From Gammaproteobacteria bacterium (GTDB lineage Bacteria > Pseudomonadota > Gammaproteobacteria > SZUA-229), in the NCBI GenBank assembly GCA_013041745.1, contig JABDRN010000028.1:123028-174344 (forward strand): 51,317 nucleotides of DNA, given 5' to 3'. The notes below the pieces were generated by a model, which saw only the letters and a list, made by a program, of their open reading frames with translations, had not been told where the DNA came from and did not search any database. A program made the position numbers and the translations under genes. This document shows, in pieces, positions 254 to 23,052 of the stretch; position 1 is the stretch's first letter; the number at the start of each line of letters is the position of its first letter.

Positions 254-829
254 TCAACGGTATAGATCATCGGGGTAATCGACATCTCTCAATACACCGG
301 CATCTGCGGTAGTGAGAAGATCAACAGCTTCTGCATTCTCTGCGATCAGATCGCGGGCACCCTTGTCGCCGCGCAGCTCAGCTAAAGACCCAAACCAGTG
401 CGATGAGAACCCTACCGGATGGCCTCGCCGTCCCGCGTGTACTGGTGCGACTATGGATGCACCGCTTTCGAGACGTTCTAGCAGAGCTGAGATGGTCGCC
501 GGCTGTATCCATGGCATATCGGCCAGTGCGATCAGCCAGCCATCTGCCATGTTGCTAACGCTGGCAGTGACGCCGGCGGCAAGGCTAGTGCCCATGCCTT
601 CATCGGCGCGGGGGTTTTCGATGATGTCCAGACCCAGTTCAGTAAATACCTCGATCAGGGCATGGTCGCCAGGTTTCACTACAGCCAGCGTATTCGCTAA
701 CACCTGTGACACTGTCTTTGCAGCCACAGCCGCTACCGGTAGACCATTATGCAGCGGATGCAGCAGCTTGGGCGCACCGAAGCGCCGTGCTGAACCGGCG
801 GCGAGAAGAATGCCAGTGACTCCTGTCAT
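254..829 (-). CDS. mocA: MocA-type molybdenum cofactor nucleotidyltransferase
   Basis: This 191-aa NTP transferase of the MobA/MocA (GlmU-like) fold would transfer CMP from CTP to molybdopterin to make MCD, the cofactor of xanthine-oxidase-family enzymes. The N-terminus carries the nucleotide-binding signature GILLAAGSARRFGAPK (residues 6-21), and LADMPW near residue 102 is the metal-binding region. Length is normal for the family. It overlaps xdhC by 4 nt and is the last gene of the operon with the two hydroxylase subunits, which is why I favour CTP/MCD over GTP/MGD. Base specificity cannot be proved by eye. It could also be annotated simply as a nucleotidyltransferase family protein. Confidence 0.88.
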   Translation of the reverse strand: MTGVTGILLAAGSARRFGAPKLLHPLHNGLPVAAVAAKTVSQVLANTLAVVKPGDHALIEVFTELGLDIIENPRADEGMGTSLAAGVTASVSNMADGWLIALADMPWIQPATISALLERLESGASIVAPVHAGRRGHPVGFSSHWFGSLAELRGDKGARDLIAENAEAVDLLTTADAGVLRDVDYPDDLYR

Positions 830-1791
830 GCGCGCTGTTGTTCAATGCCATTACGGATGGCAGTAATCTGCGCCAGGATGGAAACCGCGATCTCTGCCGG
901 GCGCTTGCTGCCGATATTCAGGCCGGCCGGACCATGGATACGTTTTAGCTGCTGCGCGCTGTAACCCAGCGATGCAAGTCGTTCTCGCCGTGCTTGTGCT
1001 GACCGGGTTGAACCCAATGCACCAATATAAAACGCCTGCGACTCGAGCGCAGCACTCAGCCCCAGGTCATCCTGGCGAGGGTCATGCGCAAGCGTCACGA
1101 TGGCGCTGCGTGTCTGCTCAGTCAGTTCCTGTACAGCATCATCGGGCATCAGATGGCTATAGTTAACTCCTGTCAGCGGTGCGGATTGGACATAGTTTTC
1201 ACGAGGATCGCAGATGGTGACCCGGTAATCGAGATGCAGCGCCATGCTTGTAAGGTGGCGCGCGAGCTGACCGTCACCGATCAGTAATAATTGCCAGGCA
1301 GGTCCGAAAGTTTTCACCACTGATGCTTCCGATAACTTGAACTCTGCACTGCCATTGCCCTGCTTCAGGTCGACCTCGCCGGTAGCCAGGTTGACTTTGC
1401 GGCTCACCAGGGCGCCATCACGAAGCTGCTGCAGTAGTGGTGCCACGGACTCGGCATCGCTCAGTTGCTCGACCAGTACCTCCAGGCGGCCACCGCATGG
1501 CAGCCCCATGCGAGAGGCTTGTTGTCGGTCGACGCCAAAGTCCACCATGGTCGGTGCCGGGCCGGCGAGCTCACCATTGCAGTACCGGGCCAGCAGTGAT
1601 TCTTCGACACAGCCACCCGATACTGATCCGGCGAACTGGCCGGCATCGTTCATCACCAGTAGCGAGCCGGGTGGTCGAGGTGATGAGCCCCAGGTTTTGA
1701 TCACGGTGGCGAGCGCAACCTGGTGACCTGACCTTAGCCAGCTGAGCGCATTCTCCAGAACATCGATATCATCCGCCTGGTCTGACATCAC
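826..1791 (-). CDS. xdhC: XdhC/CoxI family molybdoenzyme maturation factor
   Basis: This 321-aa cytoplasmic chaperone is of the XdhC/CoxI family, whose members bind and sulfurate the molybdenum cofactor and insert it into xanthine-dehydrogenase-type apoenzymes. The N-terminal XdhC_CoxI domain (about residues 10-80) contains the typical ATVIKTWGSSPRPPGS and GSVSGGCVEESLL stretches. The C-terminal half is a Rossmann-type domain (LLIGDGQLARHL near 168, then GALGSTRSAQARRERL). It lies 26 nt downstream of the large hydroxylase subunit and overlaps mocA by 4 nt, so the four genes look co-transcribed. The client is most likely the adjacent large subunit. Confidence 0.92.
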   Translation of the reverse strand: MMSDQADDIDVLENALSWLRSGHQVALATVIKTWGSSPRPPGSLLVMNDAGQFAGSVSGGCVEESLLARYCNGELAGPAPTMVDFGVDRQQASRMGLPCGGRLEVLVEQLSDAESVAPLLQQLRDGALVSRKVNLATGEVDLKQGNGSAEFKLSEASVVKTFGPAWQLLLIGDGQLARHLTSMALHLDYRVTICDPRENYVQSAPLTGVNYSHLMPDDAVQELTEQTRSAIVTLAHDPRQDDLGLSAALESQAFYIGALGSTRSAQARRERLASLGYSAQQLKRIHGPAGLNIGSKRPAEIAVSILAQITAIRNGIEQQRA

Positions 1792-1817
1792 TCAGTTATC
1801 ACTAGACAGCGCTACGC

Positions 1818-4025
1818 TCATGCGTCTAAGGCGGGCCGCAGATCGGTGTTGCTTAACGGGAATTCACGTATGCGTTTGCCGGTGGCAGCAAAGATGGCAT
1901 TCAGCACCGCCGGTGCTGCTACCGCGATGGTGGGCTCACCGATTCCGCCCCAGAATCCACCCGAAGGCATGACGATGACATCAACCTCTGGCATCTCCGA
2001 GATCAGCATCGATGGGTAGCTGTCAAAATTTTGCTGTTCGACACTACCGCCCTTGATGGTGCATCCACCATAGAGTAATGCCGACAGGCCATAGACAAAG
2101 GAGCCCTCGACCTGGGCTTCGATCTGCTGCGGATTGACCGCATGCCCCGGATCGGTGGCAGCTACGATACGATGAATCTTAAGCTTGCCGTTATCATCGA
2201 CCGAAACCTCGGCGCAGGCAGCGACATAGCTGGCAAATGCTTTACACACGGCAAGGCCGCGAAACATGCCTTTGCCGGCAGGTTTGCTCCAGCCCGCTTT
2301 CTCCGCGACGGCATCGAGTACGGCCAGGCTTTTAGGATGATCGGCCATCAAGCTGCGACGGAATTGCAGCGGATCCTTGCCTGCAGCATGGGCCAGTTCA
2401 TCGATAAAGCATTCCATGTAGATGGCATTCTGGTTGACATTGACGCCACGCCAGAAACCGGGTGGTACCGGCGGATTTCGCATCGCGTGCTCGACAAGCA
2501 GGCTCGGTACCGTGTAGCTGATGGCATGGTCACCGTCTGGCAGCAGACCCTGAAAGGTGAACATGTCGACACCGTTCTGCATCCAGCCGGGATTGACCGC
2601 AGCCAGTATCGATTGCCCGGAGATACGGATATGCAGGCTGTTCAGGTTGCCCTTGTCATCCAGCCCGCCAACCATTTTCGCCTTGGTGATGGGATGGTAG
2701 TGGCCATGTTGCATATCTTCTTCCCGGGTCCATAGCAGCTTCACCGGTGTGCCTGGCATCTGTTTTGCGATGGCGACGGCCTGGGTAACAAAATCATGAA
2801 ACGCGCCGCGTCGGCCAAAACCGCCGCCAAGATGTATTTTGTAGACCTCGCACTTTTCCGCCGGCAGCCCGGCCGCTTTTGCAGCCGCCTGTAATGCCGC
2901 CTCGCCGTTCTGTGTTGGGCACCAGACCTCACAACGATCTTCGGTCCATAATGCTGTGGCATTCATCGGTTCCATGGTGGCATGATTCTGGAAAGGGTAA
3001 CCATAAGTGGCCTCAACCTGCTTCACGGCACCCTTCAATGCTGTTTTAGCATCCCCCACCGTATTGCCGACAAAAGCATCTTTGGCCCTCAGGCCTTGGT
3101 CCAGCATCTGTTCGATGGAGACACTGCTGACTTCAGCGTTTTCTCCCTTGTCCCAGGTCACTGGCAATGCATCGAGTGCCGTATTTGCCTGCCACCAGCT
3201 ATCGGCAACCACCGCAACGGCATTGTCTTCAACCGCGACAACCGCGCGCACACCGGGCATCTTACTGACCTTTGCAGCATCAAAAGAGACCAGCTTGCCA
3301 CCGAACACCGGGCAGGCTTTGATACTTGCATTGAGCATGCCGGGCAGCTGCAGATCTGCGCCAAAGACCTGCTTGCCTGTCAATTTATCTGCCGTATCCA
3401 GCCGTTTCACTGGCTTACCGATGAGCTTCCACTCTTTCGGGTCTTTCAATTCGACCTCGAGCGGCGGGATCATCTCGGCCGCTGCCGAGGCCACTTTGCC
3501 ATAGGTTGTGGTACGACCTGTGGGCTTATGGGTGATCACACTTGACGCAACGCTGCACTCTTCTTTTGCCACATCCCAGCTTTCGGCGGCGGCTTCGATC
3601 AGCATCTCGCGTGCAACCGCGCCACCTTTGCGCACATATTGATGGCTGCCGCGGATACCCTGGCTGCCACCGGTAGAAAAACTGCCCCATACCCGGTCAC
3701 GGGCCAGGCTCTGACCGGGTGTCGGATATTCGGTTTTCACTTTTGACCAGTCGCACTCAAGCTCTTCGGCAACCAGTTGCGCCAGGCCAGTGAGGGTGCC
3801 CTGTCCCATCTCAGAGCGCGCGATACGGATGGTGACAGTATCGTCTTGCTGGATCACGACCCATGCCGTAACCTCGCTATTCTCTGCAGCATTATCTTCC
3901 CCGACAGCCAGCGCCACACCTGTGTCAGCTGGTAGATAGAGGCCAAGAGAAAAACCGGCGCCGGCGGTAACACTGCCGATAAGAAAATCACGGCGCGAAA
4001 TATTGACACGTTGCTTCATCATCAT
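1818..4025 (-). CDS. iorB: molybdopterin-binding large subunit, isoquinoline 1-oxidoreductase/aldehyde oxidoreductase type
   Basis: This 735-aa catalytic subunit belongs to the xanthine-oxidase family (IorB-like). It would hydroxylate an N-heterocycle or oxidise an aldehyde at an MCD centre. A twin-arginine signal is present ([10 protein letters not shown] at residues 11-12, followed by a hydrophobic stretch), so the folded complex is probably exported to the periplasm. Family motifs include [26 protein letters not shown] and [10 protein letters not shown] near the C-terminus. Three ATG codons are consecutive; AGGAGG sits one base before the first, so the third ATG (4019) has the best spacing. 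It overlaps the small subunit by 4 nt. No FAD subunit is present, as in IorAB, implying electron transfer to an external acceptor such as a cytochrome c. The substrate cannot be read from sequence. Confidence 0.9.
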
Positions 4026-4513
4026 GCCTCCTCGTGCTCGTTGTCGCCCGTCTTGCTGCTCCTGTTCAGATCGGCAGCAAGATGTATACCTCGACGTACC
4101 CGGTTGAATGTGCCGCAGCGGCAGATATTAGTCACATTTGCATCGATATCGGCATCACTGGGATCAGGTTTGCTCTTCAGTAACGCAGCAGCGCTCATGA
4201 TCATGCCCGGTTGGCAGTATCCGCACTGTGGCACATCGAGTTGTTGCCATGCCTGCTGTAGCGGGTGATCAGCATCGGCTGACAGTCCCTCGATCGTGGT
4301 TATTTCCTGTTTTGCCTGCAGTGCAGAAACCGGTAGCAGGCAGGAGCGTACCGCTTCGCCATCAATATGTACGGTACAGGCGCCACAGAGACCGATACCA
4401 CAACTGTACTTGGTGCCGGTCAGGCCCAGCTGCTCGCGCAGCACCCATAACAGCGGGGTAGAGGCATCCACATCGATTTCCACGAGTTTGCCGTTAACTT
4501 TTAATTTTGTCAT
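4022..4513 (-). CDS. iorA: 2x[2Fe-2S] small subunit of molybdenum hydroxylase (IorA-like)
   Basis: This 163-aa iron-sulfur subunit passes electrons from the Mo centre of the neighbouring large subunit. The N-terminal plant-type ferredoxin domain has C38, C43, C46 and C58 ([12 protein letters not shown]...C). The C-terminal four-helix [2Fe-2S] domain has C97, C100, C131 and C133 (CGYCQPGM and CRC). It has no signal of its own and would be co-exported with the Tat-targeted large subunit. AAGGAG lies 7 nt before the ATG. It is the first gene of the iorA-iorB-xdhC-mocA operon. All eight cluster ligands are present, so the protein appears intact. Confidence 0.95.
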
Positions 4514-6974: not shown

Positions 6975-7018
6975 TCACCCAGGCAGACTCCGCCTGTGGT
7001 GGTGGGGGCCTTTTTTTT
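6967..7018 (+). terminator. leader intrinsic terminator (attenuator) before nrtA
   Basis: Bases 6967-6984 pair with 6992-7010 (about 18 bp, one bulged T at 6997, one G-G mismatch, loop 6985-6991). Eight T residues follow at 7011-7018. The 5' arm reuses the P2 loop and 3' strand, so stabilising P2 would prevent termination. It lies about 30 nt before the nrtA start codon and inside the only longer in-frame extension of nrtA. Confidence 0.88.
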
Positions 7019-7049
7019 GCTTCAGACATATCAATCCTGTGGAGAAATT

Positions 7050-8477
7050 ATGAATTTTATTAAGACGTCTGAACATCTTGATGTTTCAGCACGCCCATTA
7101 TTTAGACATCGAGTCCTAAACAGCCTGGTTGCAGGAATCGCCGCCACGGCAATCCTGTTGAGCGCGAGTGTTACTGTAAATGCAGAAACCGAAGGACTGG
7201 AAAAAGAAGATCTTAAATTCGGCTTTATCAAGCTCACTGACATGGCGCCACTGGCAATTGCTTACGAGAAAGGTTACTTCGAAGACGAAGGCCTCTATGT
7301 CACTATCGAAGCGCAGGCCAACTGGAAGGTATTACTCGATGGCGTCATCGACGGCAAACTCGATGGCGCACATATGCTGGCCGGCCAGCCGCTTGGTGCC
7401 ACCATCGGCTTTGGTACCAAGGCAGATATCATTACCGCATTCTCCATGGATCTTAACGGTAACGCGATCACCGTCTCTAACAAGATCTGGCAGCAGATGA
7501 AAGAACATGTACCGCATGAGAACGGCAAACCGGTTCACCCGATCAAGGCGGACTATCTGAAACCTGTCGTCGAGAAGTATAAAGATGATGGCAAACCTTT
7601 CAAGATGGGCATGGTATTCCCGGTGTCGACGCATAACTACGAGTTGCGTTACTGGCTAGCTGCCGGTGACATCCACCCTGGATATTATGCCCCGCTCAGC
7701 GGTGATACCTCGGGCACTATCGATGCGGACGCACTGTTATCTGTAACGCCGCCACCGCAGATGCCGGCAACCATGGAAGCGGGCACTATCTATGGATACT
7801 GTGTAGGTGAGCCATGGAACCAGCAGGCGGTATTTAAAGGTATCGGTGTTCCGGTGATTACCGACTACGAGATCTGGAAAGACAACCCGGAAAAAGTTTT
7901 CGGTGTCTCTAAAGAGTGGGCCGAAAAGCATCCGAATACACATAAAGCGGTAGTCAAGGCTTTGATCCGTGCAGCCATGTGGCTTGATGAAGACGGCCTG
8001 AAAAACCGTAAAGAGGCATCGAAGATCCTGTCACGTCCTGAATATGTCGGCGCAGACTATGAAGTCATCGCCAACTCGATGACCGGTACCTTCGAGTATG
8101 AGAAAGGTGACAAGCGTTCGGTACCGGACTTCAATGTCTTCTTCCGTTATAACGCGACTTATCCTTACTACTCGGATGCGGTCTGGTACCTGTCACAGAT
8201 GCGCCGCTGGGGCCAGATTGCGGAATACAAATCAGACGACTGGTATAAGGACATGGCGAAGAAGGTCTACCGTCCGGACATCTATGCAGCAGCGGCAAAA
8301 GAGCTGATCGCAGAGGGTAAAGCGGATGCGAAAGACTTCCCGAACTTCGATAAAGAATCGGGTTTCCGCGCACCGCAGACCGAGTTTATCGACGAGGTGA
8401 CTTTTGATGGTACCAAGCCGAATGCTTATCTCGAGTCGTTCAAGATCGGGCTTAAAGGTAAGGACGTAGTGAAATAG
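7050..8477 (+). CDS. nrtA: nitrate ABC transporter substrate-binding protein NrtA
   Basis: This 475-aa periplasmic binding protein of the NrtA/NasF family captures nitrate (or nitrite/cyanate) for the following permease and ATPase. It has a long n-region, a hydrophobic core around residues 22-42 and a signal-peptidase site after VNA, with no lipobox. Family sequences include [45 protein letters not shown] and [20 protein letters not shown] place the start at the ATG at 7050 because GGAG lies 6 nt upstream. The in-frame GTG at 6996 is inside the leader terminator. It heads nrtABC. Control is inferred to be sigma-54/NtrC plus NasT antitermination. Confidence 0.93.
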
Positions 8478-8495
8478 ATTAGCAATAACAGGTTC

Positions 8496-8556
8496 CTGGC
8501 AACGAAGGTAAGCGGCAGGTATGGAGTACCTGTTGTTTACCTTCAGGGGTTGCTGG
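8496..8556 (+). other. intercistronic long hairpin between nrtA and nrtB
   Basis: Three stacked helices nest with small internal loops: 8496-8503 with 8549-8556 (including G-T pairs), 8505-8511 with 8537-8543, and 8516-8520 with 8528-8532. No T-run follows, so this is not a normal terminator. Such structures between a binding-protein gene and its permease gene often protect the upstream mRNA 3' end, giving more binding protein than membrane subunits. Confidence 0.7.
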
Positions 8557-8579
8557 TGAATTTGTTACCGGAGTAAACA

Positions 8580-9545
8580 ATGAAATTATCCAGAACAAAA
8601 GTATTTACAGATGAACAATATTCTGTATTAATTCGAACCTATATCTTCCCGCTCATAGCGGTCGCCCTATTCCTGGGATTATGGGGCATATCTGCCTCAC
8701 AGGTACAGACATCACTGGGGCAGCTGCCCGGTCCGACCGCTGTGTTCCAGCAGGCAAGCAACCTTGTCGATGAGCATATCGCCGCGCGTGAAAAAGAGGT
8801 CAGTTTCTTAGAGCGCCAGGAGAAACGCAATGCGGCTAAACTGGAGAAGGATCCTGATGCGGTGGTTAAGATCCGCCCATACACCGGTAAGGCAACTTTC
8901 TTTGACCAGATTTTCACCAGCCTGTTTACCGTCTTCACCGGCTTTATCATGGCATCACTTATCGCCATTCCGATCGGTATCATCACCGGTTTGAGTAATG
9001 ACCTGTACCGCTCGATAAACCCCATCGTGCAGCTGCTAAAACCGATTTCGCCACTGGCCTGGCTGCCGATCGTGACCATGGTGGTCAGTGCAGTATATGT
9101 CAGTGATGATCCGATGTTCGACAAGTCTTACCTGACTTCAGCCTTCACCGTGATGCTGTGCTGTATGTGGCCGACATTGATCAATACCGCGGTCGGTGTC
9201 TCTACCGTAGATAAAGACCTGATCAATGTCAGCAAGGTGTTGAGGCTAGGCTGGTTTACCAAGGTCTACAAGATCATATTGCCATCGGCTGTGCCGATGA
9301 TCTTCACCGGCCTGCGTCTCAGCCTGAGCATCGGCTGGATGGTGTTGATAGCAGCTGAGATGCTTGCGCAAAACCCGGGTCTGGGCAAGTTTGTCTGGGA
9401 TGAGTTTCAGAATGGCAGCTCCAATTCGCTGGGCCGGATCATGGTCGCAGTGATCGCTATCGGTATCGTCGGCTACATGCTTGACCGCGGTATGCTGATG
9501 CTGCAGAAAAAAGTGTCATGGGATAAATCGGTCGTATTGCGATGA
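8580..9545 (+). CDS. nrtB: nitrate ABC transporter permease NrtB
   Basis: This 321-aa inner-membrane permease is of the BPD_transp_1/SsuC-NrtB type. TM1 is at about residues 24-42. It is followed by a roughly 60-residue charged loop (AAREKEVSFLERQEKRNAAK) not found in short SsuC-type permeases, then the core TM bundle from about residue 110. The coupling-loop signature that contacts the ATPase reads SKVLRLGWFTKVYKIILPSA followed by VPMIFTGLRLSLSIGW. It sits between the binding protein and the ATPase, with a long intercistronic hairpin upstream and about 40 nt downstream. GGAG precedes the ATG (TACCGGAGTAAACA). Confidence 0.93.
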   Translation: MKLSRTKVFTDEQYSVLIRTYIFPLIAVALFLGLWGISASQVQTSLGQLPGPTAVFQQASNLVDEHIAAREKEVSFLERQEKRNAAKLEKDPDAVVKIRPYTGKATFFDQIFTSLFTVFTGFIMASLIAIPIGIITGLSNDLYRSINPIVQLLKPISPLAWLPIVTMVVSAVYVSDDPMFDKSYLTSAFTVMLCCMWPTLINTAVGVSTVDKDLINVSKVLRLGWFTKVYKIILPSAVPMIFTGLRLSLSIGWMVLIAAEMLAQNPGLGKFVWDEFQNGSSNSLGRIMVAVIAIGIVGYMLDRGMLMLQKKVSWDKSVVLR

Positions 9546-9586
9546 TCAATGACGAGCTGAGATATAAAGATTCGGAGTTATAGAAT

Positions 9587-10468
9587 ATGAAAAACATACA
9601 TTTGAATATAGATCACATCTCTATGGAGTTCCCGACACCCGATGGCCCATACGTGGCATTGAGAGATGTTGATCTGAAGATGGCACAGGGCGAGTTCGTC
9701 TCATTGATCGGTCATTCTGGCTGTGGCAAATCCACTGTCCTCAATGTCGTCGCTGGTCTTTACCAGGCGACCAGGGGCGGCGTGGTACTGGATAACAAAG
9801 AGGTCGATGAGCCGGGTCCGGAACGTGCCGTGGTCTTTCAGAACCATTCATTACTGCCCTGGCTGACCGCGTATGAGAATGTTGAACTTGCGGTAAAACA
9901 GGTTTTTGGCCGAGCCAGATCTTCAAAGACCAAGAACAAGGCGGAGATGAAAGAATGGATAGAGTATAACCTGCACCTGGTCCATATGGACCATGCGATG
10001 CACAAACGCCCCGATGAGATCTCGGGTGGCATGAAGCAGCGCGTCGGTATTGCCCGTGCCTTGGCGATGGAGCCTAAAGTATTGCTGATGGATGAACCCT
10101 TTGGCGCGCTGGATGCGTTGACCCGTGCACATATGCAGGAGTCTTTGATGGAGATCCATGCCGACCTGGGCAACACCGTCATCATGATCACGCATGATGT
10201 CGATGAAGCGGTGCTATTGTCTGATCGCATCGTAATGATGACCAATGGGCCGGCAGCCACCATCGGTGAGATTCTCAAGATTGATCTGCCGCGTCCTCGC
10301 GACCGGGTCGAGCTTTCGGATAATGCAAATTATAACCATTACCGGCATGAAGTGCTGCAGTTCTTATATGAACGTCAAAGGCGCCCCGGCGAAGAGGTAG
10401 TGGCTGAAGAGGCAAGTGATGACGAAGCTGCGCCGAGTTTGAAAGTCGTTAAAACTGAAGCAGCATAA
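9587..10468 (+). CDS. nrtC: nitrate ABC transporter ATP-binding protein
   Basis: This 293-aa ABC ATPase energises nitrate uptake. The Walker A box is GHSGCGKST (residues 42-50), the signature SGGMKQR (146-152), Walker B VLLMDE (165-170), and the H-loop lies in MITHDVDEAVLLSDR. It lacks the extra substrate-binding-like domain of cyanobacterial NrtC and so is closer in architecture to NrtD/NasD; the symbol is one of convenience. The last about 25 residues are an acidic low-complexity tail (EEVVAEEASDDEAA). It is the third gene of the transporter operon, after which about 300 nt separate it from nirB. Confidence 0.92.
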   Translation: MKNIHLNIDHISMEFPTPDGPYVALRDVDLKMAQGEFVSLIGHSGCGKSTVLNVVAGLYQATRGGVVLDNKEVDEPGPERAVVFQNHSLLPWLTAYENVELAVKQVFGRARSSKTKNKAEMKEWIEYNLHLVHMDHAMHKRPDEISGGMKQRVGIARALAMEPKVLLMDEPFGALDALTRAHMQESLMEIHADLGNTVIMITHDVDEAVLLSDRIVMMTNGPAATIGEILKIDLPRPRDRVELSDNANYNHYRHEVLQFLYERQRRPGEEVVAEEASDDEAAPSLKVVKTEAA

Positions 10469-10705: not shown

Positions 10706-10721
10706 GGCATGGTTCTTGTTA
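10706..10721 (+). promoter_or_regulatory. possible sigma-54 promoter of nirBD
   Basis: Matching TGGCA-N6-TTG at the correct spacing, the sequence TGGCATGGTTCTTGTT carries GT rather than GC in the -12 box. It sits downstream of a good NtrC-like dyad and would give a leader of roughly 30 nt. The mismatch in the -12 element keeps confidence moderate. Confidence 0.4.
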
Positions 10722-10765
10722 GAGTATTAACAAGTAATAATATTCATCTGTGCAACGAGGCAATA

Positions 10766-13219
10766 ATGAAAGAAAAACTAGTTTTGATCGGTAATGGTAT
10801 GGCTGGTGTACGCGCACTTGAAGAACTGTTCAAGCACAACACCAGCAGTGATAAAGGCAGTGACCTTTATGATATTACCGTAATAGGTGCAGAGCCGCAC
10901 CCTAATTACAACCGCATCATGTTGTCTCCGGTGCTGGCCGGCGAACAGACCATCAATGACATCATCCTGAACACGTCTGAATGGTACGAAGAGAACGGTA
11001 TCGAACTGGTGACAGGTGACCCTGCGATAGAGATCTCTCGCATTCAAAAATCCGTTATAACCGAGAGTGGTAAGAATATTCATTATGACCGCCTGTTGAT
11101 TGCTACAGGTTCCACCCCGTTTATTATCCCTGTACCCGGTGCCGACAAAGAGGGTGTACTGGGTTTTCGCGACATCCATGATGTACAAACCATGGTGAAA
11201 GCATCCAGGGAATACAAAAAAGCTGTCGTCATCGGTGGCGGTCTGTTAGGCCTCGAAGCTGCTAACGGCCTGATGAAGCAGGGTATGGATGTGACCGTGG
11301 TGCACCTGCTGGACTCACTGATGGAGCGACAGTTAGATAAACCGGCATCTGCTCTGTTGAAAGCTTCACTGGAAACACGCGGTATGAAATTCCTCATGGA
11401 AGCATCGACTGCTGAGATCGTCGGTGACAAGCGTGTCAGCTCGGTTAAATTTGCAGATGGTTCTGAAGTCGAAGCTGATCTCGTGGTGATGGCTGTCGGA
11501 ATTCGACCTGATATCGAACTGGCACAGAAAGCCGGTATCCATTGCCAGCGCGGTATCGTTGTCAATGACACCATGCAGACGTTTGACCCGCTGATCTATG
11601 CTGTCGGTGAGTGTGTGCAGCACAGGAATGAATGTTACGGCCTGGTCGCACCTCTGTTCGAACAGGCCAGGGTGGCAGCTAACCACCTGGCGCAGGTAGG
11701 CAGTACACGTTATATCGGTTCCATGACTTCGACCAAATTAAAAGTAACCGGTATAGACCTTTTCTCTGCCGGTGAATTTAACGAAGAAGAAGGCGACGAA
11801 GTTTTACAGATGCAGGATGTCGCCAGTGGTGTTTATAAGAAGCTGGTGCTCAAGGACAATGTGATCAAGGGTGCCGTGATGTTCGGCGACACCATGGACG
11901 GTACCTGGTACTTCAGCCTGATGCGAGATGCAACGAATATCGCTGATTTCCGCCGGACCATCCTGTTTGGCCAGCATGACCTTGGCGATGCCGGTCACGG
12001 CGAAGCATCAGCGGTCATGTCTCTGCCGGATGATGCAGAGATTTGCGGCTGTAATGGTGTCTCCAAGGGTAACATCGTTCAGGCGATCAGCAAGAACGGT
12101 ATCTTTACATTGGATGAGGTGCGCGCCCACACCAAGGCATCCTCTTCCTGCGGCTCATGTACCGGGCTGGTCGAATCTATCCTGGCTTCGACGGTCGGTG
12201 AAGGTTATGACGCAACGCCGAGTAAGAAAGCCGTGTGTGCCTGTACCGACTGCAGTCATGATGAGGTGATCGATGCGATCAAGGATCATGAATTAAAAAC
12301 CATGGATGCGGTTCGCCAGTTCCTCGAATGGAAGACACCGGATGGCTGCGCCGCATGCCGTCCTGCGCTGAACTATTATCTGTTGGCGCGTTGGCCTGAA
12401 GAGTACCAGGATGATGCGCAGTCACGCTTCATCAATGAGCGTGCACACGGCAATATTCAAAAAGACGGCACCTACTCTGTAGTGCCGCGTATGTTCGGCG
12501 GCCTTGTTAAGCCGAACGAGCTGCGCGCTATCGCAGATGTCTGTGACAAATTCGAGGTGCCGGAGATGAAGGTGACCGGTGGCCAGCGTATCGATCTGTT
12601 CGGTGTCAAAAAAGAAGATCTGCCAGCGATGTGGAAAGATCTGACCGATGCCGGTTTTGTTTCCGGCCATGCTTACGGTAAAGCCATGCGCACGGTCAAG
12701 ACTTGTGCTGGTAAGACCTGGTGCCGCTTCGGGACACAGAATTCGACCCGTCTCGGTGTCAAGCTGGAAGAGCTGACATGGGGTTCCTACATGCAGCACA
12801 AATTTAAACTTGCCGTATCCGGTTGTCCGCGTAACTGTGCGGAAGCCACCATCAAAGATTTTGGCGTGGTCTGTGTCGACTCAGGTTATGAGTTGCATAT
12901 CGGTGGAAACGGTGGCATCAAGGTCCGCGTCACCGACCTGTTATGTAAAGTAGAGACAGAGGAAGAAGTGCTGGAATACTGTGCGGCCTTCACACAGAAG
13001 TATCGTGAAGAAGCGCATTACCTGGAGCGTACCGCGCCATGGGTGGAGCGTGTCGGCCTGACCTACGTCAAGGAGTGCATACTCGACGATGAGGCCGAAC
13101 GTAAAGCGCTGGCCGAGCGATTCAAGATAAGCCAGAAAGTCGCACAGGTCGACCCCTGGAAAGAACGTGCTGACGGCCAGGCTTCACATGAATTCACACC
13201 ATTAAAAATTGCGGGATAG
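10766..13219 (+). CDS. nirB: NADH-dependent nitrite reductase large subunit NirB
   Basis: This 817-aa cytoplasmic enzyme reduces nitrite to ammonium with NADH. Domains in order are: an FAD/NAD-binding pyridine nucleotide-disulfide oxidoreductase module (GNGMAGVRALEE near residue 8, GGGLLGLEAANGL in the NAD motif); two BFD-like [2Fe-2S] modules (C427/C429/C462/C465, then C491/C493...C528/C531); and the sirohaem-[4Fe-4S] reductase half-domains with cluster/sirohaem cysteines C647, C653, C687 and C691 (SGCPRNCAEA). I start at 10766, where CGAGG lies 5 nt upstream. The upstream in-frame ATG at 10709 falls in the candidate promoter region and adds 19 unrelated residues. nirD follows after 3 nt. 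It should have a cytoplasmic nitrite source, provided by the NarB-like enzyme downstream. Confidence 0.96.
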   Translation: MKEKLVLIGNGMAGVRALEELFKHNTSSDKGSDLYDITVIGAEPHPNYNRIMLSPVLAGEQTINDIILNTSEWYEENGIELVTGDPAIEISRIQKSVITESGKNIHYDRLLIATGSTPFIIPVPGADKEGVLGFRDIHDVQTMVKASREYKKAVVIGGGLLGLEAANGLMKQGMDVTVVHLLDSLMERQLDKPASALLKASLETRGMKFLMEASTAEIVGDKRVSSVKFADGSEVEADLVVMAVGIRPDIELAQKAGIHCQRGIVVNDTMQTFDPLIYAVGECVQHRNECYGLVAPLFEQARVAANHLAQVGSTRYIGSMTSTKLKVTGIDLFSAGEFNEEEGDEVLQMQDVASGVYKKLVLKDNVIKGAVMFGDTMDGTWYFSLMRDATNIADFRRTILFGQHDLGDAGHGEASAVMSLPDDAEICGCNGVSKGNIVQAISKNGIFTLDEVRAHTKASSSCGSCTGLVESILASTVGEGYDATPSKKAVCACTDCSHDEVIDAIKDHELKTMDAVRQFLEWKTPDGCAACRPALNYYLLARWPEEYQDDAQSRFINERAHGNIQKDGTYSVVPRMFGGLVKPNELRAIADVCDKFEVPEMKVTGGQRIDLFGVKKEDLPAMWKDLTDAGFVSGHAYGKAMRTVKTCAGKTWCRFGTQNSTRLGVKLEELTWGSYMQHKFKLAVSGCPRNCAEATIKDFGVVCVDSGYELHIGGNGGIKVRVTDLLCKVETEEEVLEYCAAFTQKYREEAHYLERTAPWVERVGLTYVKECILDDEAERKALAERFKISQKVAQVDPWKERADGQASHEFTPLKIAG

Positions 13220-13222
13220 ATC

Positions 13223-13579
13223 ATGAATATGAATGCATTGAAAGAAGAGTTAGACGGAGACAGCGGTATGGATGTCTGGACTGAAGTTGTTGCCCTGGAT
13301 CAGATACCGCAACTGGGTTCACGCGTGATCGCAACAGATACCATGAACATCGCAGTCTTTCGCACCGCAAGTGATGAAGTGTTCGCCATGAAAGATGAGT
13401 GTCCGCACAAGAAGGGCCCGCTGTCGCAGGGTATCGTTCATGGCACATCAGTAACCTGTCCACTGCATAACTGGAAGATCGACCTGGCCAGCGGTGAAGC
13501 GCTTGGGCCTGATGAAGGCTGTACGAATGTGTTCTCTGCAAAAGTTGAGAATGGCACAGTCTATATCGCCTTCAGGTAA
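13223..13579 (+). CDS. nirD: nitrite reductase small subunit NirD with intact Rieske ligands
   Basis: This 118-aa Rieske-fold partner of NirB starts 3 nt after the nirB stop codon. Unlike the enterobacterial NirD, which lacks cluster ligands, this copy keeps the Rieske pattern C60-P-H62 and C79-P-L-H82, so it could bind a [2Fe-2S] cluster. The rest is a compact beta-fold without signal peptide. It is cotranscribed with nirB. It could alternatively be called a Rieske 2Fe-2S protein, but the position makes NirD the best name. Confidence 0.93.
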   Translation: MNMNALKEELDGDSGMDVWTEVVALDQIPQLGSRVIATDTMNIAVFRTASDEVFAMKDECPHKKGPLSQGIVHGTSVTCPLHNWKIDLASGEALGPDEGCTNVFSAKVENGTVYIAFR

Positions 13580-13773: not shown

Positions 13774-15978
13774 ATGTTATTTGGACGTAAGCAAAAGAAC
13801 CCGATAAAGATCGTCGACAAGGGAATCGTAGAGTGGAAGTATGCTACCTGTGGTTACTGTTCGACAGGTTGCGCCATCGAAGTGGGTTTGAATGAAGATG
13901 GCAAGCCGGTTTCTTCACGTGGTGTTGCGGAAGCGGATGTCAACCGGGGCAAGTTATGTCTGAAAGGCATCTATGAACATGAGCTGTTTGACTCGGCAGG
14001 ACGCGGCACGGTGCCGAGGAAGCGCGAGCACTGGCATGAAGAATGGCAGGATACCGACTGGGATACAGCGCTTGATGTTAGCCACGATGAGATCCGCCGC
14101 ATCCAGGAAAAATATGGTCGTGATTCTTTCGCCATTATATCGACCGGCCAGATGCTGACCGAAGAGTTTTATACCCTGGGCAAGTTGACGCGTGGACTGA
14201 TCGGCACCAATAACTATGATGGTAATACGACCCTGTGCATGGCTTCGGCCGTATCAGGTTATAAACGTTCATTTGGATCGGATGGCCCGCCAGGCTGCTA
14301 TGAGGACTTCGAGCATACCGATTGCCTGATCGCATGGGGTTCTAATCTTCCCGAGCAGCACCCCATCATCTACTGGCGCATGAAAGAGGCCCAGGAGAAG
14401 CGAAACTTTCCATTGATCGTGGTCGACCCGCGCGTCACCATGCTGGCACAGTTTGCTGACATACACCTGCCGATAACGCCAGGCACCGATGTCGTGCTGC
14501 AAAATGCCTTAATGCATGTCATCTTCGATGAGAACCTAGAGGACAGCGCATACATCGCTGCCAATACCAATGGTATCGAAGAACTGCGTGAAGAAGTAGC
14601 GAAATATGATCCGACCACTGCCGCAAAGATATGTGGTATCGATGAGGACACGATCCGAAGTGTCGCCCGTGTATTTGCCAAAGCGGATGCAGCCATGTCT
14701 ATCTGGACCATGGGTATCAACCAGTCGACGCACGGATCTGATGGTGTTGTCGGTATCAACAACCTGTCGCTGATCACCGGTAACATCGGCAAGCCCGGCG
14801 GCACCTCGCTCTCTATCACCGGGCAGTGTAATGCCATGGGTACCAGGGAGTGGTCTTCGTGTTCCGGCCTGCCAAACTACCGTGCGCTGGAAAATGAACA
14901 GGATCGTAAAGAGATCGCCGAGTTCTGGAATATCGAGGAATCGTTTCTGCCAGAGAAACGCGGCATGTTCCAGACAGATATTTACCATGCCATCGAAGCT
15001 GGCCACATCAAGGGCCTGTGGCTGATCGCTACCAACCCGTTGAGTTCGTTGCCCAATTCAGAACGTGTCCGGCGTGCCATGCAGAAGCTGGAATTCTGTG
15101 TGGTGCAGGACTGTTACCAAGATACCGAGAGTGCACAGTATGCGCACGTCTATCTGCCGGCCGGCACCTGGGCCGAAAAAGAAGGCGTGATGACCAATAC
15201 CGAGCGCCGTGTCAATCTGGTCAAACCGATCGTTGAACCACCGGGTGAGGCGAAACCCGACCTGTGGGTTTTTAACCAGATGGCGAAGCGTTTCAATAAA
15301 GACAACAGGGTAAGCTTCCCTGACAAAGCCGCCGATATCTTTATCGAGATGGCTGGTATATCCAGAGGCCGGCTGGCAGATATCTCTGGTATGAGTCACG
15401 ATCTGATCGAAAAGCACCGTGGTGTGCAATGGCCTTACACTGAAGAGCAACTCGGTAATAATGAGCAGCCGCCACCGGGCGGCAAGCGGTTATATACCGA
15501 GACAGCCAGTTTCTGTTATGCAGACGGCAAGGCCAAACTGATTCCACTGCCCTTTATCGATAACAATGAAGTGCCGGACGAAAAGTTTCCGATATGGCTT
15601 AACACCGGCCGTCTCGTCGAGCACTGGCATGGCCGCACCAAGACCGGAAAGATTGGTAACAATAATAAATACAGCCCGATACCGTTTATCGAGATAAACC
15701 CTGATCTTGCAGCTGAACTGGACCTTCAGCGTGGCGAGTATGTACGCCTGGTCTCGCGCCGTTCTGATGCCGTAGTTATGGCGACGCCGACGCAAAGGGT
15801 GCCAAAGAACATGATATTTCTGCCGTTTCATTTCCACGATTGCGCTAATCGACTGACCCTCGGCCTGCTCGATCCGCATTCACGTCAGCCCGCCTATAAA
15901 CAGTCGGCAGTGCGTATCGAGAAACTCGCAGACCAGGTAGCGGCGGCAAAACTTAGCATGGAAATGCGTGCATTCTAA
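13774..15978 (+). CDS. narB: cytoplasmic molybdopterin nitrate reductase catalytic subunit (NarB/NasA-like)
   Basis: This 734-aa bis-MGD oxidoreductase of the DMSO reductase family most likely reduces nitrate to nitrite. The N-terminal [4Fe-4S] motif is C26-x2-C29-x3-C33...C62. The Mo ligand is probably C155 in TTLCMASAV, the arrangement of Nas/Nap enzymes. A C-terminal molydop-binding domain (from about residue 600: WLNTGRLVEHWHGRTKTG) completes the fold. There is no Tat or Sec signal, so it is cytoplasmic. There is no C-terminal BFD [2Fe-2S] domain as in Klebsiella NasA. It lies between nirBD and a DmsBC-like fusion gene (5 nt gap), with mobB following. Substrate assignment rests on this context; another oxyanion substrate cannot be excluded from sequence. 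Confidence 0.87.
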   Translation: MLFGRKQKNPIKIVDKGIVEWKYATCGYCSTGCAIEVGLNEDGKPVSSRGVAEADVNRGKLCLKGIYEHELFDSAGRGTVPRKREHWHEEWQDTDWDTALDVSHDEIRRIQEKYGRDSFAIISTGQMLTEEFYTLGKLTRGLIGTNNYDGNTTLCMASAVSGYKRSFGSDGPPGCYEDFEHTDCLIAWGSNLPEQHPIIYWRMKEAQEKRNFPLIVVDPRVTMLAQFADIHLPITPGTDVVLQNALMHVIFDENLEDSAYIAANTNGIEELREEVAKYDPTTAAKICGIDEDTIRSVARVFAKADAAMSIWTMGINQSTHGSDGVVGINNLSLITGNIGKPGGTSLSITGQCNAMGTREWSSCSGLPNYRALENEQDRKEIAEFWNIEESFLPEKRGMFQTDIYHAIEAGHIKGLWLIATNPLSSLPNSERVRRAMQKLEFCVVQDCYQDTESAQYAHVYLPAGTWAEKEGVMTNTERRVNLVKPIVEPPGEAKPDLWVFNQMAKRFNKDNRVSFPDKAADIFIEMAGISRGRLADISGMSHDLIEKHRGVQWPYTEEQLGNNEQPPPGGKRLYTETASFCYADGKAKLIPLPFIDNNEVPDEKFPIWLNTGRLVEHWHGRTKTGKIGNNNKYSPIPFIEINPDLAAELDLQRGEYVRLVSRRSDAVVMATPTQRVPKNMIFLPFHFHDCANRLTLGLLDPHSRQPAYKQSAVRIEKLADQVAAAKLSMEMRAF

Positions 15979-15995
15979 AAAGGGTGATTAATTAC

Positions 15996-17897
15996 GTGTT
16001 AAAAAGAAGAGAAAACGAGCCGGCTTATGCCTTGTTGAATGACCCGAGCAGTCAGGCACAGAACCACTATGGTCATGCTATAGATACCGTGCAGCCGGAT
16101 GATCCGCTTCGTCAACAGTCATTTGTAATCAATGACGATGAGATCGCTGCTGAGAATCCTAACCGCTATAAGCAGCATGGCTTCTATTTTGATGCGGATA
16201 ACTGTATCGCCTGCCATGCATGTGAAGCAGCATGCAGCGAAAAGAATGATAACCCGGCTCATATATCATTCCGCTCGGTCGGCTTTGTTGAAGGCGGGAC
16301 TTATCCTGCGTATCAGCGACTGAATATTTCCATGGCCTGTAATCACTGCGATGATCCGGTCTGTCTCAAGGGTTGTCCGACGCGCGCCTACACCAAGTTT
16401 GCTGAATACGGTGCGGTACTGCAGGACCCGGATATCTGTTTTGGCTGCGGCTACTGTACATGGGTATGTCCTTACAATGCACCGCAGCTTGACCCGGTTA
16501 AAGGCCAGGTGACCAAATGCAATATGTGTGTCGACCGGCTCGAAGTCGGATTGAAGCCCGCCTGTGTCTCTGCCTGCCTGGGAAATGCGCTTGACTTTGG
16601 TGTGGTAGAAAATATCCCCGAAAACCGAAGCCAGGCAAAAACCGAGATCCCGGGTTTTCCGCGTACAGATATAACGCAACCGAATATCCGCTTTCAGCAG
16701 ACACGTACGCCGCAGCGTGATATGAACCGGGTAGACCAGAGCCCGGTGAAATATCATCGCGATGAACATTCTGAGAGTTTTAAACCTGTCGTCGATAAGG
16801 CGCAGGGCAGCGAGCGCAGCTGGAACCTGGCGAAGTTGCTCGGCTCACATGAGAATGCACATATCGCCTTTACCCTCAGTGCCCAGGCCGTGATGGCGGC
16901 TTTTCTGATTATGCTCAGTGGCTACGGCTTAGAACCGATGCAGAGTTACCAGTCGAGCAATGCGATGTTACCAGTGCAGCTTTTGATGATCGTATTGATG
17001 AGTTTTGGTCTGTTCAAACTGAACATGCATCTCGGTAAACCACATCGTTTCTATCGCGGATTCTATAACCTGAGGCATTCGCCTGTCAGTCGAGAGATCG
17101 CCGGTGTCTCTGCATTCTATACGGGGCTTCTCGGTTATAGTCTCTTTGCTCTGTTTGCTGTTTCCGACAACGGCTTCGCGGTCTATGCACAATACCTGCA
17201 GATAGTATTTGCCGGCATTGCTGTTCTGGGGGCGATACTCGGAGGCTACTACATGTACAGGCTGTACCGGATAGAAGCACGTCCGTTCTGGAATCACTGG
17301 TATACCGCGGCAAGTTTCTGTTCTAGCGGACTGACATTAGGTTCACTGTTACTCGGACTGGTTGCGTTAGCGACATCCAGTATGTCGCAGCAACTCGGTG
17401 GGTTCCTGATGGTACTGATGGCGATCGGCCTGCTGCTGGAGATCGTCGGGCTGAGCAGCCATGCGAGAAGTTTACGCTCCAGTGAGAGTGAAGGCGCAGC
17501 ATCCTTCTACCTGCAGACGACCCGCTTTGGTAATGCATACTGGCTGCGCAACGGCCTGTTGCTGCTGGCACTGGTGCTAACCGCTTATATCGGGTTTGGT
17601 GATGAGCATACACTGTTTGCATACAGCCTGTTAACGGCCAGTGTTTTTGCCAGTAACATCATCAGTCGCGCTTTGTTCTATGTCGTCGTGATCCCGACGA
17701 CGATGCCAGGGGCATTCTTCTGGAAAAATGCCGGCTTTGAAGAACATGCCAGAGAGGTCGGCCTGGCCGACATGCCACAGATGGGTGTGGCGTATGAGGG
17801 TCATCATGCATTCAGATTTGACGAGCTCATAGAAACGATCAGAACGACGACGATGAAACAAAAGTACGCACAGCTTCGCAGTATCTTTACTGGTTAG
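15996..17897 (+). CDS. fused DmsB-like 4x[4Fe-4S] and DmsC-like membrane subunit
   Basis: This protein of about 633 aa joins two normally separate subunits. Residues about 50-215 are a DmsB/NrfC-type ferredoxin with four complete cysteine sets (CIACHACEAAC, CNHCDDPVCLKGC, CFGCGYCTWVC, and CNMC with ACVSAC). Residues about 285-600 contain roughly eight transmembrane helices of the DmsC type, which oxidise quinol. It would link the quinone pool to the NarB-like subunit encoded 5 nt upstream. With no exported catalytic subunit, the ferredoxin half should face the cytoplasm. GTG codons occur at 15984 and 15996; AAAGGG leaves usable spacing only for the second, so I start there. This electron donor is unusual beside NirBD. 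Confidence 0.87.
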   Translation: MLKRRENEPAYALLNDPSSQAQNHYGHAIDTVQPDDPLRQQSFVINDDEIAAENPNRYKQHGFYFDADNCIACHACEAACSEKNDNPAHISFRSVGFVEGGTYPAYQRLNISMACNHCDDPVCLKGCPTRAYTKFAEYGAVLQDPDICFGCGYCTWVCPYNAPQLDPVKGQVTKCNMCVDRLEVGLKPACVSACLGNALDFGVVENIPENRSQAKTEIPGFPRTDITQPNIRFQQTRTPQRDMNRVDQSPVKYHRDEHSESFKPVVDKAQGSERSWNLAKLLGSHENAHIAFTLSAQAVMAAFLIMLSGYGLEPMQSYQSSNAMLPVQLLMIVLMSFGLFKLNMHLGKPHRFYRGFYNLRHSPVSREIAGVSAFYTGLLGYSLFALFAVSDNGFAVYAQYLQIVFAGIAVLGAILGGYYMYRLYRIEARPFWNHWYTAASFCSSGLTLGSLLLGLVALATSSMSQQLGGFLMVLMAIGLLLEIVGLSSHARSLRSSESEGAASFYLQTTRFGNAYWLRNGLLLLALVLTAYIGFGDEHTLFAYSLLTASVFASNIISRALFYVVVIPTTMPGAFFWKNAGFEEHAREVGLADMPQMGVAYEGHHAFRFDELIETIRTTTMKQKYAQLRSIFTG

Positions 17898-17985: not shown

Positions 17986-18525
17986 ATGCTAAAGACTATT
18001 AGTAGCGAAATGTGCTTCACAAAACCTGTCCTCGGTTTTGCCGCTTATTCAGGTACCGGCAAAACCACTTTACTGGTGAAGTTGCTGCCTCTGCTCAAAG
18101 CATATGGTTTGCGTATAGCCATGATCAAGCAGACACATCACGACTTTGAAATCGATAAGCCGGGAAAAGACAGCTTCGAATTACGTAAGGCTGGCGCCGA
18201 CCAGGTCATGCTGGCGTCTGACCGGCGCTGTGCAGTGATCACCGAGTACCAGAGAGCGAAAGAGCCTGTTCTGGTTGAACTTATAAACAGGCTTGAGCTG
18301 GACGCTATCGATCTGGTCATGGTCGAAGGCTTCAAGCATGCGCATTTCGCAAAGATCGAATTGCATCGTTCAGCGCTAGCTAGTCGATTGCTTTTCCCGA
18401 AAGATGACTCAGTGATCGCGCTAGCATCTGATGAACAGCTGGATACAGGCAATCTGCCATTACTCGATATCAACGCCCCTGAACAGGTAGCCGAATTTAT
18501 CAAGCAGTGGCTGGATACATGCTGA
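17986..18525 (+). CDS. mobB: molybdopterin-guanine dinucleotide biosynthesis adaptor MobB
   Basis: This 179-aa P-loop GTP-binding protein assists MGD synthesis. The Walker A region is GFAAYSGTGKTTLL (residues 17-30). DLVMVEGFKHAHFAKIEL is the typical MobB segment, and LRKAGADQVMLAS is the switch-like region. It lies 88 nt after the DmsBC-like fusion on the same strand. bis-MGD is exactly the cofactor the upstream nitrate reductase needs, so cotranscription makes sense. No mobA is seen nearby; the MocA-like gene at 254 belongs to the other molybdoenzyme operon. Confidence 0.93.
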   Translation: MLKTISSEMCFTKPVLGFAAYSGTGKTTLLVKLLPLLKAYGLRIAMIKQTHHDFEIDKPGKDSFELRKAGADQVMLASDRRCAVITEYQRAKEPVLVELINRLELDAIDLVMVEGFKHAHFAKIELHRSALASRLLFPKDDSVIALASDEQLDTGNLPLLDINAPEQVAEFIKQWLDTC

Positions 18526-22181: not shown

Positions 22182-22988
22182 CTAGGCGGCTTTTCTACGG
22201 CCTATCCAGCCAAGTAAAGCCAGTCCTGAGCTGAACAGGATAATTGGTAGAGGCAGGGGAACGACCGCAGTTTGAGTATGGAAAGCACCAGCAAGAGAGA
22301 TGTTTGCGTTGGCGTTATTGCCACCAGCATTAACATCACCATTGAAGTCATTACCTATAAACAATCGGATGTAGCCCAATTCTATGTCATCAGCTAGCCA
22401 TGAAGATATGTCTTTGCCGTCTTTATCGACTAGGTTGTCGCGAAGGTTAATCGAGGTAGTGAAAATATTGCCTGAGAACTTAGAACTCGATTTTGGGTAG
22501 GTCTCTGAAGCATCAGTTGTTGGATTGACTCGGTACATATAATCGCTGAGTAAAGTGCCATCGCTGAGTAAGGTGCCGTCACTATCAAAAGTAGCGTCAT
22601 TACCAAAGGCCTGTAGCCCGAAAGTGTAGTCAAATTCAGACCACTGAGAGACTATAACAAGATCAACACCTGTGCCGGTAACAACCTTTTTATCGCCGAA
22701 ACCAAGGTCAATTGATGACCAGTTTTGAAGGGGGGACGTACCGGTTATGGGATTGTTAAGGCCATATATAGAGGGGATGGAAGTAGGTGAAGGATTAGTT
22801 TTTAGCGATGTGATATTACTGTTAAATATCGACTCTATTTCATTATTATTGAGCGCGGTGTCGCCTGGCGTTGAAGAAAAGCTACCATATGTACCTATTA
22901 CCTGAGTAGCATAAGCATTGACACCAGCTGCCTGTACTGGAGCTGCTAATGTGGCAAGAATGATATTCAGTAACAGCAATTGTTTCAT
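22182..22988 (-). CDS. secreted protein with VPLPA-CTERM-like C-terminal sorting signal
   Basis: This protein of about 268 aa has a Sec signal peptide (cleavage near APVQA). The C-terminal tail starts with VPLP, is followed by a hydrophobic helix, and ends in GRRKAA, the tripartite PEP-CTERM/VPLPA-CTERM architecture recognised by exosortases. The body is rich in N, S, T and G, with a small internal tandem duplication (LLSDGT twice, from an 18-bp DNA repeat at about 22548-22583). I prefer the ATG at 22988 (GAGA 7 nt upstream) to the earlier ATG at 23027, which lacks a binding site. No exosortase gene is in this window. The likely fate is surface or matrix export. Confidence 0.8.
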   Translation of the reverse strand: MKQLLLLNIILATLAAPVQAAGVNAYATQVIGTYGSFSSTPGDTALNNNEIESIFNSNITSLKTNPSPTSIPSIYGLNNPITGTSPLQNWSSIDLGFGDKKVVTGTGVDLVIVSQWSEFDYTFGLQAFGNDATFDSDGTLLSDGTLLSDYMYRVNPTTDASETYPKSSSKFSGNIFTTSINLRDNLVDKDGKDISSWLADDIELGYIRLFIGNDFNGDVNAGGNNANANISLAGAFHTQTAVVPLPLPIILFSSGLALLGWIGRRKAA

Positions 22989-23052
22989 GACTATTCTCAT
23001 TAAATTTATATTTTTAAAATTTATCATTATCTACATGGATGCCCGTTGAACA

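Follow-up and report, generated by a model that had tools for sequence, protein, structure and literature searches.

Nitrate assimilation is taught as a process driven by NADH, ferredoxin or flavodoxin. Quinol-linked, cytoplasm-facing reduction of nitrate via four Fe-S clusters is the chemistry of NarGHI, which is electrogenic owing to the quinol site of NarI, a b-type cytochrome, on the periplasmic side. The assimilatory enzymes NasA, NasC and NarB are cytoplasmic, with a Cys-ligated Mo-bisPGD, a Cys-Met site and a TGQxNAxGxRE motif, and their genes are clustered with nirBD and nitrate transporters. Electrons are known to reach them from ferredoxin, from flavodoxin, or from NADH by way of NasB or a fused flavoprotein. 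In DmsABC and YnfEFGH a four-[4Fe-4S] subunit is combined with an eight-helix quinol-binding anchor, where DmsB and DmsC are separate proteins and DmsA is Ser-ligated, Tat-exported and periplasmic. In SoeABC the catalytic and Fe-S subunits face the cytoplasm on an inverted anchor of the DmsC/NrfD type (PMC8076601). A survey of the superfamily reports neither a membrane anchor subunit nor a four-[4Fe-4S] subunit alongside any member of the clade of NasA/NasC, AioA and NapA (PMC7331816). Is there any Nas-type enzyme that draws on the quinone pool? The gene pair described here would be one, and if so it would contrast with the survey's picture of a Nas clade without quinone-linking subunits.

The pair lies in a window of 51,317 nucleotides, the whole stretch of DNA analysed. 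The original prediction placed a NarB-like catalytic subunit and a DmsB-DmsC fusion, here called qNasA and qNasBC, in an nrt-nirBD-mobB island. Both reading frames (13774-15978 and 15984-17897) were confirmed, as were nrtABC, nirB, nirD and mobB around them:

6996..8477, + strand: NrtA-like nitrate/nitrite ABC transporter binding protein of the NMT1_2 family (PF13379, E=4.6e-98)
8580..9545, + strand: ORF, putative NrtB-like permease, from its sequence and its position between nrtA and nrtC
9587..10468, + strand: ORF, NrtC/D-like ATPase (ABC motifs GHSGCGKST, SGGMKQR and LLMDEPF)
10709..13219, + strand: nirB, NADH-dependent siroheme nitrite reductase large subunit (TIGR02374, 961 bits, cut-off 578)
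13223..13579, + strand: nirD, nitrite reductase small subunit (TIGR02378, 98 bits, cut-off 74.65)
13774..15978, + strand: qNasA, catalytic nitrate reductase, 734 aa, with one N-terminal [4Fe-4S], Mo-bisPGD and no export signal
14236..14238, + strand: codon of Cys155, predicted to ligate Mo; Met156 comes next, as in Nas/Nap enzymes (from the alignment; no variation among 21 homologues)
15984..17897, + strand: qNasBC, DmsB-DmsC fusion, ORF of 637 aa; likelier start GTG 15996
16203..16577, + strand: four-[4Fe-4S] domain, Cys74 to Cys198 (16 Cys, all kept in 33/33 homologues)
16854..17702, + strand: eight transmembrane helices of the DmsC/NrfD type, residues 291-573 (AlphaFold2, fold search)
17028..17096, + strand: predicted quinol-site motif His349, Gly351, Pro353, Ser366, Glu371 (alignment; invariant in 33/33)
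17986..18525, + strand: mobB, molybdopterin guanine dinucleotide adaptor (TIGR00176, 145 bits, cut-off 76)

The cluster from nrtABC to mobB contains no nar, nrf, nap or denitrification genes, and a search of the host genome found no second nitrate reductase and no NarG. Because of the nrtABC-nirBD context and the lack of another nitrate reductase in the genome, an assimilatory role of the pair is supported.

The catalytic ORF carries the Pfam domains Molybdop_Fe4S4, Molybdopterin and Molydop_binding. In formate dehydrogenases the Mo-ligand position is followed by His, where Nas and Nap enzymes have Met. Alignment shows the signatures LCMASAV and TGQCNAMGTREW in qNasA, which are Nas/Nap-like; the Cys-Met active site and the TGQxNAxGxRE/D motif are invariant in 21 homologues, and the formate dehydrogenase signatures (Cys/Sec-His, as in FdhF, and RGQNNVQG) are absent from qNasA in the same alignment, with Cys-Met in place of the former. 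At the Ser column of DmsA qNasA has Cys, and it differs likewise from the Asp-ligated NarG. On a tree it falls within a fork holding Nas, NapA and the qNasA clade (support 98/96), apart from DmsA, PhsA, SoeA and FdhF; the tree leaves the order inside this fork open and was built without cyanobacterial NarB and B. subtilis NasC. It thus groups with nitrate reductases and not with non-nitrate enzymes. Scores against NCBIfam models all stay below cut-off (Fdh-alpha 544/666 bits, the best; NasC 491/1100; halo-NasA 469/1000), the Nas models being narrow equivalogs of other lineages whose cut-off is not strictly defining. No Tat motif was found in the 21 NasA homologues, so that "signal-less" in the original prediction stands, while "NarB-like" was too specific for a protein on its own branch within Nas/Nap in a tree without cyanobacterial NarB. 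NapA, in contrast, has a Tat signal and napD/napB partners. Taken together, the alignment and tree support qNasA as a nitrate-reductase-type molybdoenzyme of the Nas group, with predicted activity on nitrate.

The second gene encodes, as predicted, four [4Fe-4S] clusters and about eight DmsC-type helices in one polypeptide. A DmsB-like dicluster region lies at about residues 64-211, scoring 160 bits with the DmsB model TIGR02951, under its cut-off of 214, and a PF04976 DmsC match covers residues 287-566, its 66 bits being well over the cut-off of 22. AlphaFold2 gave eight long helices at 291-573, mostly with high pLDDT, and the best fold matches of this helical domain are ActC and PsrC (Z 22.9 and 18.6). 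The Fe-S half was poorly modelled in both runs (33 and 81 sequences), and the packing of clusters on helices is not read from them. The predicted quinol-site motif aligns with His65, Ser82 and Glu87 of E. coli DmsC, the site residues described for that protein (PMC8076601); DmsABC and YnfEFGH share the same His/Ser/Glu motif. As to ancestry, the DmsC half of the fusion scores closer to E. coli DmsC and YnfH, but an unrooted tree of three groups (fusion, DmsC and SoeC) cannot show which two are sisters; the Fe-S-half tree joins fusion and DmsB at a support of only 83/79. Where does the protein start? The 5-nt gap given earlier presupposes GTG 15984, which abuts an AAAGG motif. GTG 15996 is favoured because of the homologue consensus MxxxRxNEP and the ribosome-site spacing; qNasBC then probably has 633 aa and begins 17 nt after qNasA.

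The membrane orientation was read from loop charges. The mean number of Lys plus Arg per loop is 0.86 in odd loops versus 12.7 in even loops, a positive-inside pattern seen in 51/51 fusions. It is opposite to that of E. coli DmsC and YnfH, the charges of DmsC being those of an N-out protein, and the same as in 13 SoeC-like proteins. By this pattern the clusters of the fusion are predicted to face the cytoplasm; all 51 fusions show the inverse of the charges that go with a DmsABC-like N-out topology and periplasmic clusters. No Tat motif was found in 81 fusions.

These features suggest that the pair is a membrane-tethered quinol:nitrate oxidoreductase with its catalytic side in the cytoplasm, making nitrite for assimilation, and we put the probability of this reading at roughly three in four. 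Ubiquinol would bind the DmsC-type helical domain on the cytoplasmic side; electrons would cross the four [4Fe-4S] clusters bound by the N-terminal half of qNasBC and pass to the [4Fe-4S] and Mo-bisPGD of qNasA. Nitrate imported by NrtABC would be reduced there, and NirBD would convert nitrite to ammonium using NADH. With quinol oxidised and nitrate reduced on one and the same side of the membrane, the nitrate step would be electroneutral, and it would spend quinol instead of NADH or reduced ferredoxin. What might be the advantage? Lithotrophs and methanotrophs make quinol directly, and autotrophic lithotrophs obtain NADH or reduced ferredoxin by costly reverse electron transport. The original prediction of a cytoplasm-facing assimilatory enzyme is thus backed by the tree, charges, linkage and context; from these we infer the complex, its quinol donor, the direction of electron flow, the energetics and the physiological benefit. 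The potential of ubiquinone is roughly +90 mV. Reverse operation as nitrite oxidation was rejected on energetics, with nitrate/nitrite at +433 mV (PMC10100899).

Is the pair conserved as a unit? Among 369 genomes of Gammaproteobacteria, the class of the window, the fusion occurs in 60, this nasA in 62 and both in 59, with the fusion only in 1 and nasA only in 3; four loci are cut by contig ends. The gene-order survey found nasA directly 5' of the fusion at 58/61 loci, a conservation far beyond chance. In one genome (G015) the two genes are unlinked and both retained. The mirror-tree distance correlation was rejected as evidence of contact between the two proteins, its value of 0.77 for nasA-fusion being no higher than the 0.76 for fusion-nirB.

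Might the same complex serve respiration or redox balancing, by dissipative nitrate reduction, with assimilation not its main use? Its chemistry is that of NarGHI, a cytoplasmic nitrate site with a quinol donor, and in some genomes, such as L076 and L122/G080, a canonical NADH-type NasA also lies beside the pair, a redundancy if assimilation were the task of both; the role may therefore not be purely assimilatory everywhere. However, ATP-driven uptake by nrtABC is typical of assimilation, nirBD and mobB accompany it without respiratory genes in the cluster, the pair is the sole nitrate reductase found in the host genome, and the predicted cytoplasmic quinol site would move no charge. We consider this use unlikely.

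Still less probable is that qNasA is fed by ferredoxin or flavodoxin like cyanobacterial NarB, with the fusion a mere anchor or the partner of another enzyme. The compact size of qNasA (about 730 aa) and its single cluster are those of ferredoxin-dependent NarB, and genome G290 has this nasA where the fusion was not found. Yet the strict conservation of all 16 cluster Cys and of the quinol-site residues would be needless in an inert anchor, and the fusion is linked near-obligately to this nasA alone. An enzyme of the SoeABC or formate type acting on sulfite or formate and misread as a nitrate reductase is very improbable, although the generic Fdh-alpha model gave the top score and SoeABC has the inverted anchor in common. 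SoeABC belongs to another catalytic lineage, runs towards quinone and keeps B and C unfused; the host genome holds a separate SoeABC. Moreover, the tree places qNasA at a great distance from SoeA and FdhF, its active-site residues are those of nitrate reductases, and the nirBD-nrt context recurs in many genomes.

We return to the quinol-fed assimilatory enzyme. Not only this bacterium but also numerous sulfur oxidisers and methane eaters related to it appear to use such a membrane-tethered, quinol-fed enzyme to reduce nitrate for growth, where the nitrate-assimilating bacteria described so far spend NADH or ferredoxin. Among culturable methanotrophs, Methylomonas methanica and a Methylomicrobium have the pair. 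A good case can be made that they hold a widespread, undescribed class of assimilatory nitrate reductase, in which a fused DmsB-DmsC with its anchor inverted to the cytoplasm would deliver electrons from the quinone pool, and autotrophic and C1-using Gammaproteobacteria would be spared the expense of NADH or ferredoxin in reducing nitrate to nitrite. The energy budgeted for nitrate use would then change for methanotrophs, giant sulfur bacteria and the symbionts of tubeworms and clams. It would also follow that a DmsC-type anchor can be turned round and put to use with a catalytic subunit of unrelated origin. The open literature yielded no description of the pair; the search left subscription journals and bioRxiv outside, so a prior description is possible.

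The original prediction treated a single locus, and the family is widespread. A plasmid search returned no full-length copy of the fusion and thus no sign of plasmid spread. A search for AMO/PmoA in 15 genomes gave no match, with the controls also without a match, and is therefore uninformative. With shared ancestry uncorrected and RuBisCO-like proteins included in PF00016, a gene of this RuBisCO family is present in 54/60 fusion genomes versus 133/309 others.

Both open reading frames were found where the original prediction had placed them, and the nrt-nirBD-mobB surroundings are as it described:

6996-10468, nrtABC, upstream of the pair
nirB and nirD, upstream of the pair
13774-15978, nasA, the catalytic subunit, 734 aa
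15984-17897, the fusion of a DmsB-type four-[4Fe-4S] domain with DmsC/NrfD-type helices, 637 aa
mobB, downstream of the pair

The predicted gap of 5 nt is probably 17 nt, with the fusion (then 633 aa) starting at GTG 15996. This start is preferred because GTG 15984 abuts the AAAGG motif, while 15996 has the right spacing and matches the homologues' consensus start. Residues are numbered on the 637-aa reading.

Is the catalytic subunit a nitrate reductase? A domain search found all three molybdopterin oxidoreductase domains, and no curated NCBIfam model claims the protein. In a tree of 39 sequences, cyanobacterial NarB and Bacillus NasC not among them, it joins the Nas and Nap nitrate reductases with support 98/96 and not the non-nitrate enzymes, the alternative raised with the original prediction. 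It is separate from FdhF-type enzymes and distant from DmsA, YnfE, PhsA and SoeA; branching within the nitrate reductase group has no resolution. In the alignment, its active site (TTLCMASAV) and second motif (TGQCNAMGTREW) match Nas and Nap, while formate dehydrogenases carry C/U-H and RGQNNVQGACD at these sites and, in DmsA, the Cys column is occupied by Ser. The subunit had been called signal-less, and indeed none of its 21 homologues has an export signal. No further nitrate reductase was found in the window's own genome (about 96% complete). The other superfamily members found there are only SoeA and complex I-type sequences, one match on contig C4 being only partial, so nasA is the sole nitrate reductase found. 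The contig that holds the window also carries a complete soeABC (L118, G000:C100:37000-48000).

The fusion fits its description as one polypeptide with four clusters and about eight DmsC-type helices. A four-cluster ferredoxin region is followed by PF04976 (DmsC), and four [4Fe-4S] clusters are expected since all 16 cluster cysteines are invariant among 33 fusion homologues. An AlphaFold2 model gives eight long helices at residues 291-573 with high confidence. Among solved structures they best match two NrfD-type subunits, ActC (Z 22.9, rmsd 3.2, 286 aligned) and PsrC (Z 18.6, rmsd 3.5, 244 aligned); cytochrome bd chains score similar Z. The anchor half scores nearer DmsC than SoeC, in a branching order without resolution. 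His349, Ser366 and Glu371, invariant among fusion homologues, align with His65, Ser82 and Glu87 of E. coli DmsC (PMC8076601) and form the predicted quinol site.

On which side of the membrane do the clusters lie? One charge pattern is shared by 51 of 51 fusions: the loops that an inside N-terminus would place in the cytoplasm average 12.7 Lys plus Arg, the other loops 0.86. The pattern is opposite, except in the conserved second loop, in DmsC and YnfH of E. coli, which are known to be N-out. Thirteen proteins of SoeC type, proposed to sit inverted in the membrane (PMC8076601), agree with the fusions. None of 81 fusions has a Tat signal. From charge pattern and missing signal together, the clusters are predicted to lie in the cytoplasm rather than the periplasm, as originally proposed.

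Are the two genes kept together? Among 369 genomes of the window's class, the full fusion occurs in 60, nasA (identity at least 65%, the next relatives being clearly set apart at 41% or less) in 62, and both in 59. The named relatives, all Gammaproteobacteria, include Thiotrichaceae, Sedimenticola, Methylococcales, Cycloclasticus, Sulfuricella, Thiobacillus and the symbionts of tubeworms and bivalves. At 58 of 61 fusion loci nasA lies directly 5' on the same strand, 56 times within 400 bp. Outside these linked pairs, four loci end at contig boundaries. G015 retains both genes on separate contigs, far from contig ends (L176, L177). In G290 a nasA fragment at a contig start is followed by unrelated genes (L175:3-1793); no fusion was found in that genome, leaving an apparent orphan. 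A phylum sample of 398 genomes added five carriers, of which two lie outside the class; nasA is upstream in each.

The anatomy of the pair is consistent with electron flow from ubiquinol through the four clusters of the fusion to NasA and nitrate, a path that would stay on the cytoplasmic face throughout. Nitrate reduction by this path would be exergonic and electroneutral, and it would spare NADH or ferredoxin. Autotrophic sulfur oxidisers have to make these carriers by reverse electron transport. A RuBisCO-family gene is present in 54 of 60 fusion genomes and in 133 of the other 309, an odds ratio of 11.9 uncorrected for shared ancestry; this agrees with such sparing but is not proof of it.

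The modules are known; their combination and orientation are not described in the open literature searched (subscription journals were outside its scope), where no account of the pair was found. According to PMC7331816, members of the clade of NasA/NasC, AioA and NapA have neither four-[4Fe-4S] subunits nor membrane anchors as partners. Assimilatory nitrate reductase is not among the enzymes with NrfD-like subunits listed in PMC8076601, and the electron donor of Sulfobacillus NasC, which lacks NasB, was called unclear (PMC4378227). Papers on the genomes of sulfur and iron oxidisers record nasA with nirBD, in passages that mention no membrane partner.

In some genomes the same cluster also encodes a second NasA, of canonical type, with about 890 aa and a BFD domain (L076:9891-13884; L083:9999-13918; L122, G080:C1:870551-877633), accompanied in L076 and L083 by an FAD/NADH reductase; these clusters hold two nitrate reductases with differing electron inputs. 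Directly downstream of the fusion, about 10-12 of 80 related loci encode a MoxR ATPase resembling RavA and a VWA protein resembling ViaA (L111:4701-6257, L096:4055-5806, L180:9044-10603). A maturation role is possible by analogy, as RavA-ViaA of E. coli helps Fe-S respiratory enzymes. On a Deinococcus plasmid, genes for a four-cluster ferredoxin and for a Rieske protein adjoin that of a Nas-like molybdoenzyme (L131:1881-5382), which may be a further case of nitrate reductase with an unusual source of electrons. Elsewhere in the window, 254-4513 holds a xanthine-dehydrogenase-family pair, whose large subunit (1818-4025) appears to bear a Tat signal and whose 2Fe-2S subunit lies at 4022-4513, with XdhC-like and MocA-like genes, and 22182-23027 encodes a secreted protein with a PEP-CTERM-like sorting tail at its C-terminus (VVPLPLPIILFSSGLALLGWIGRRKAA).
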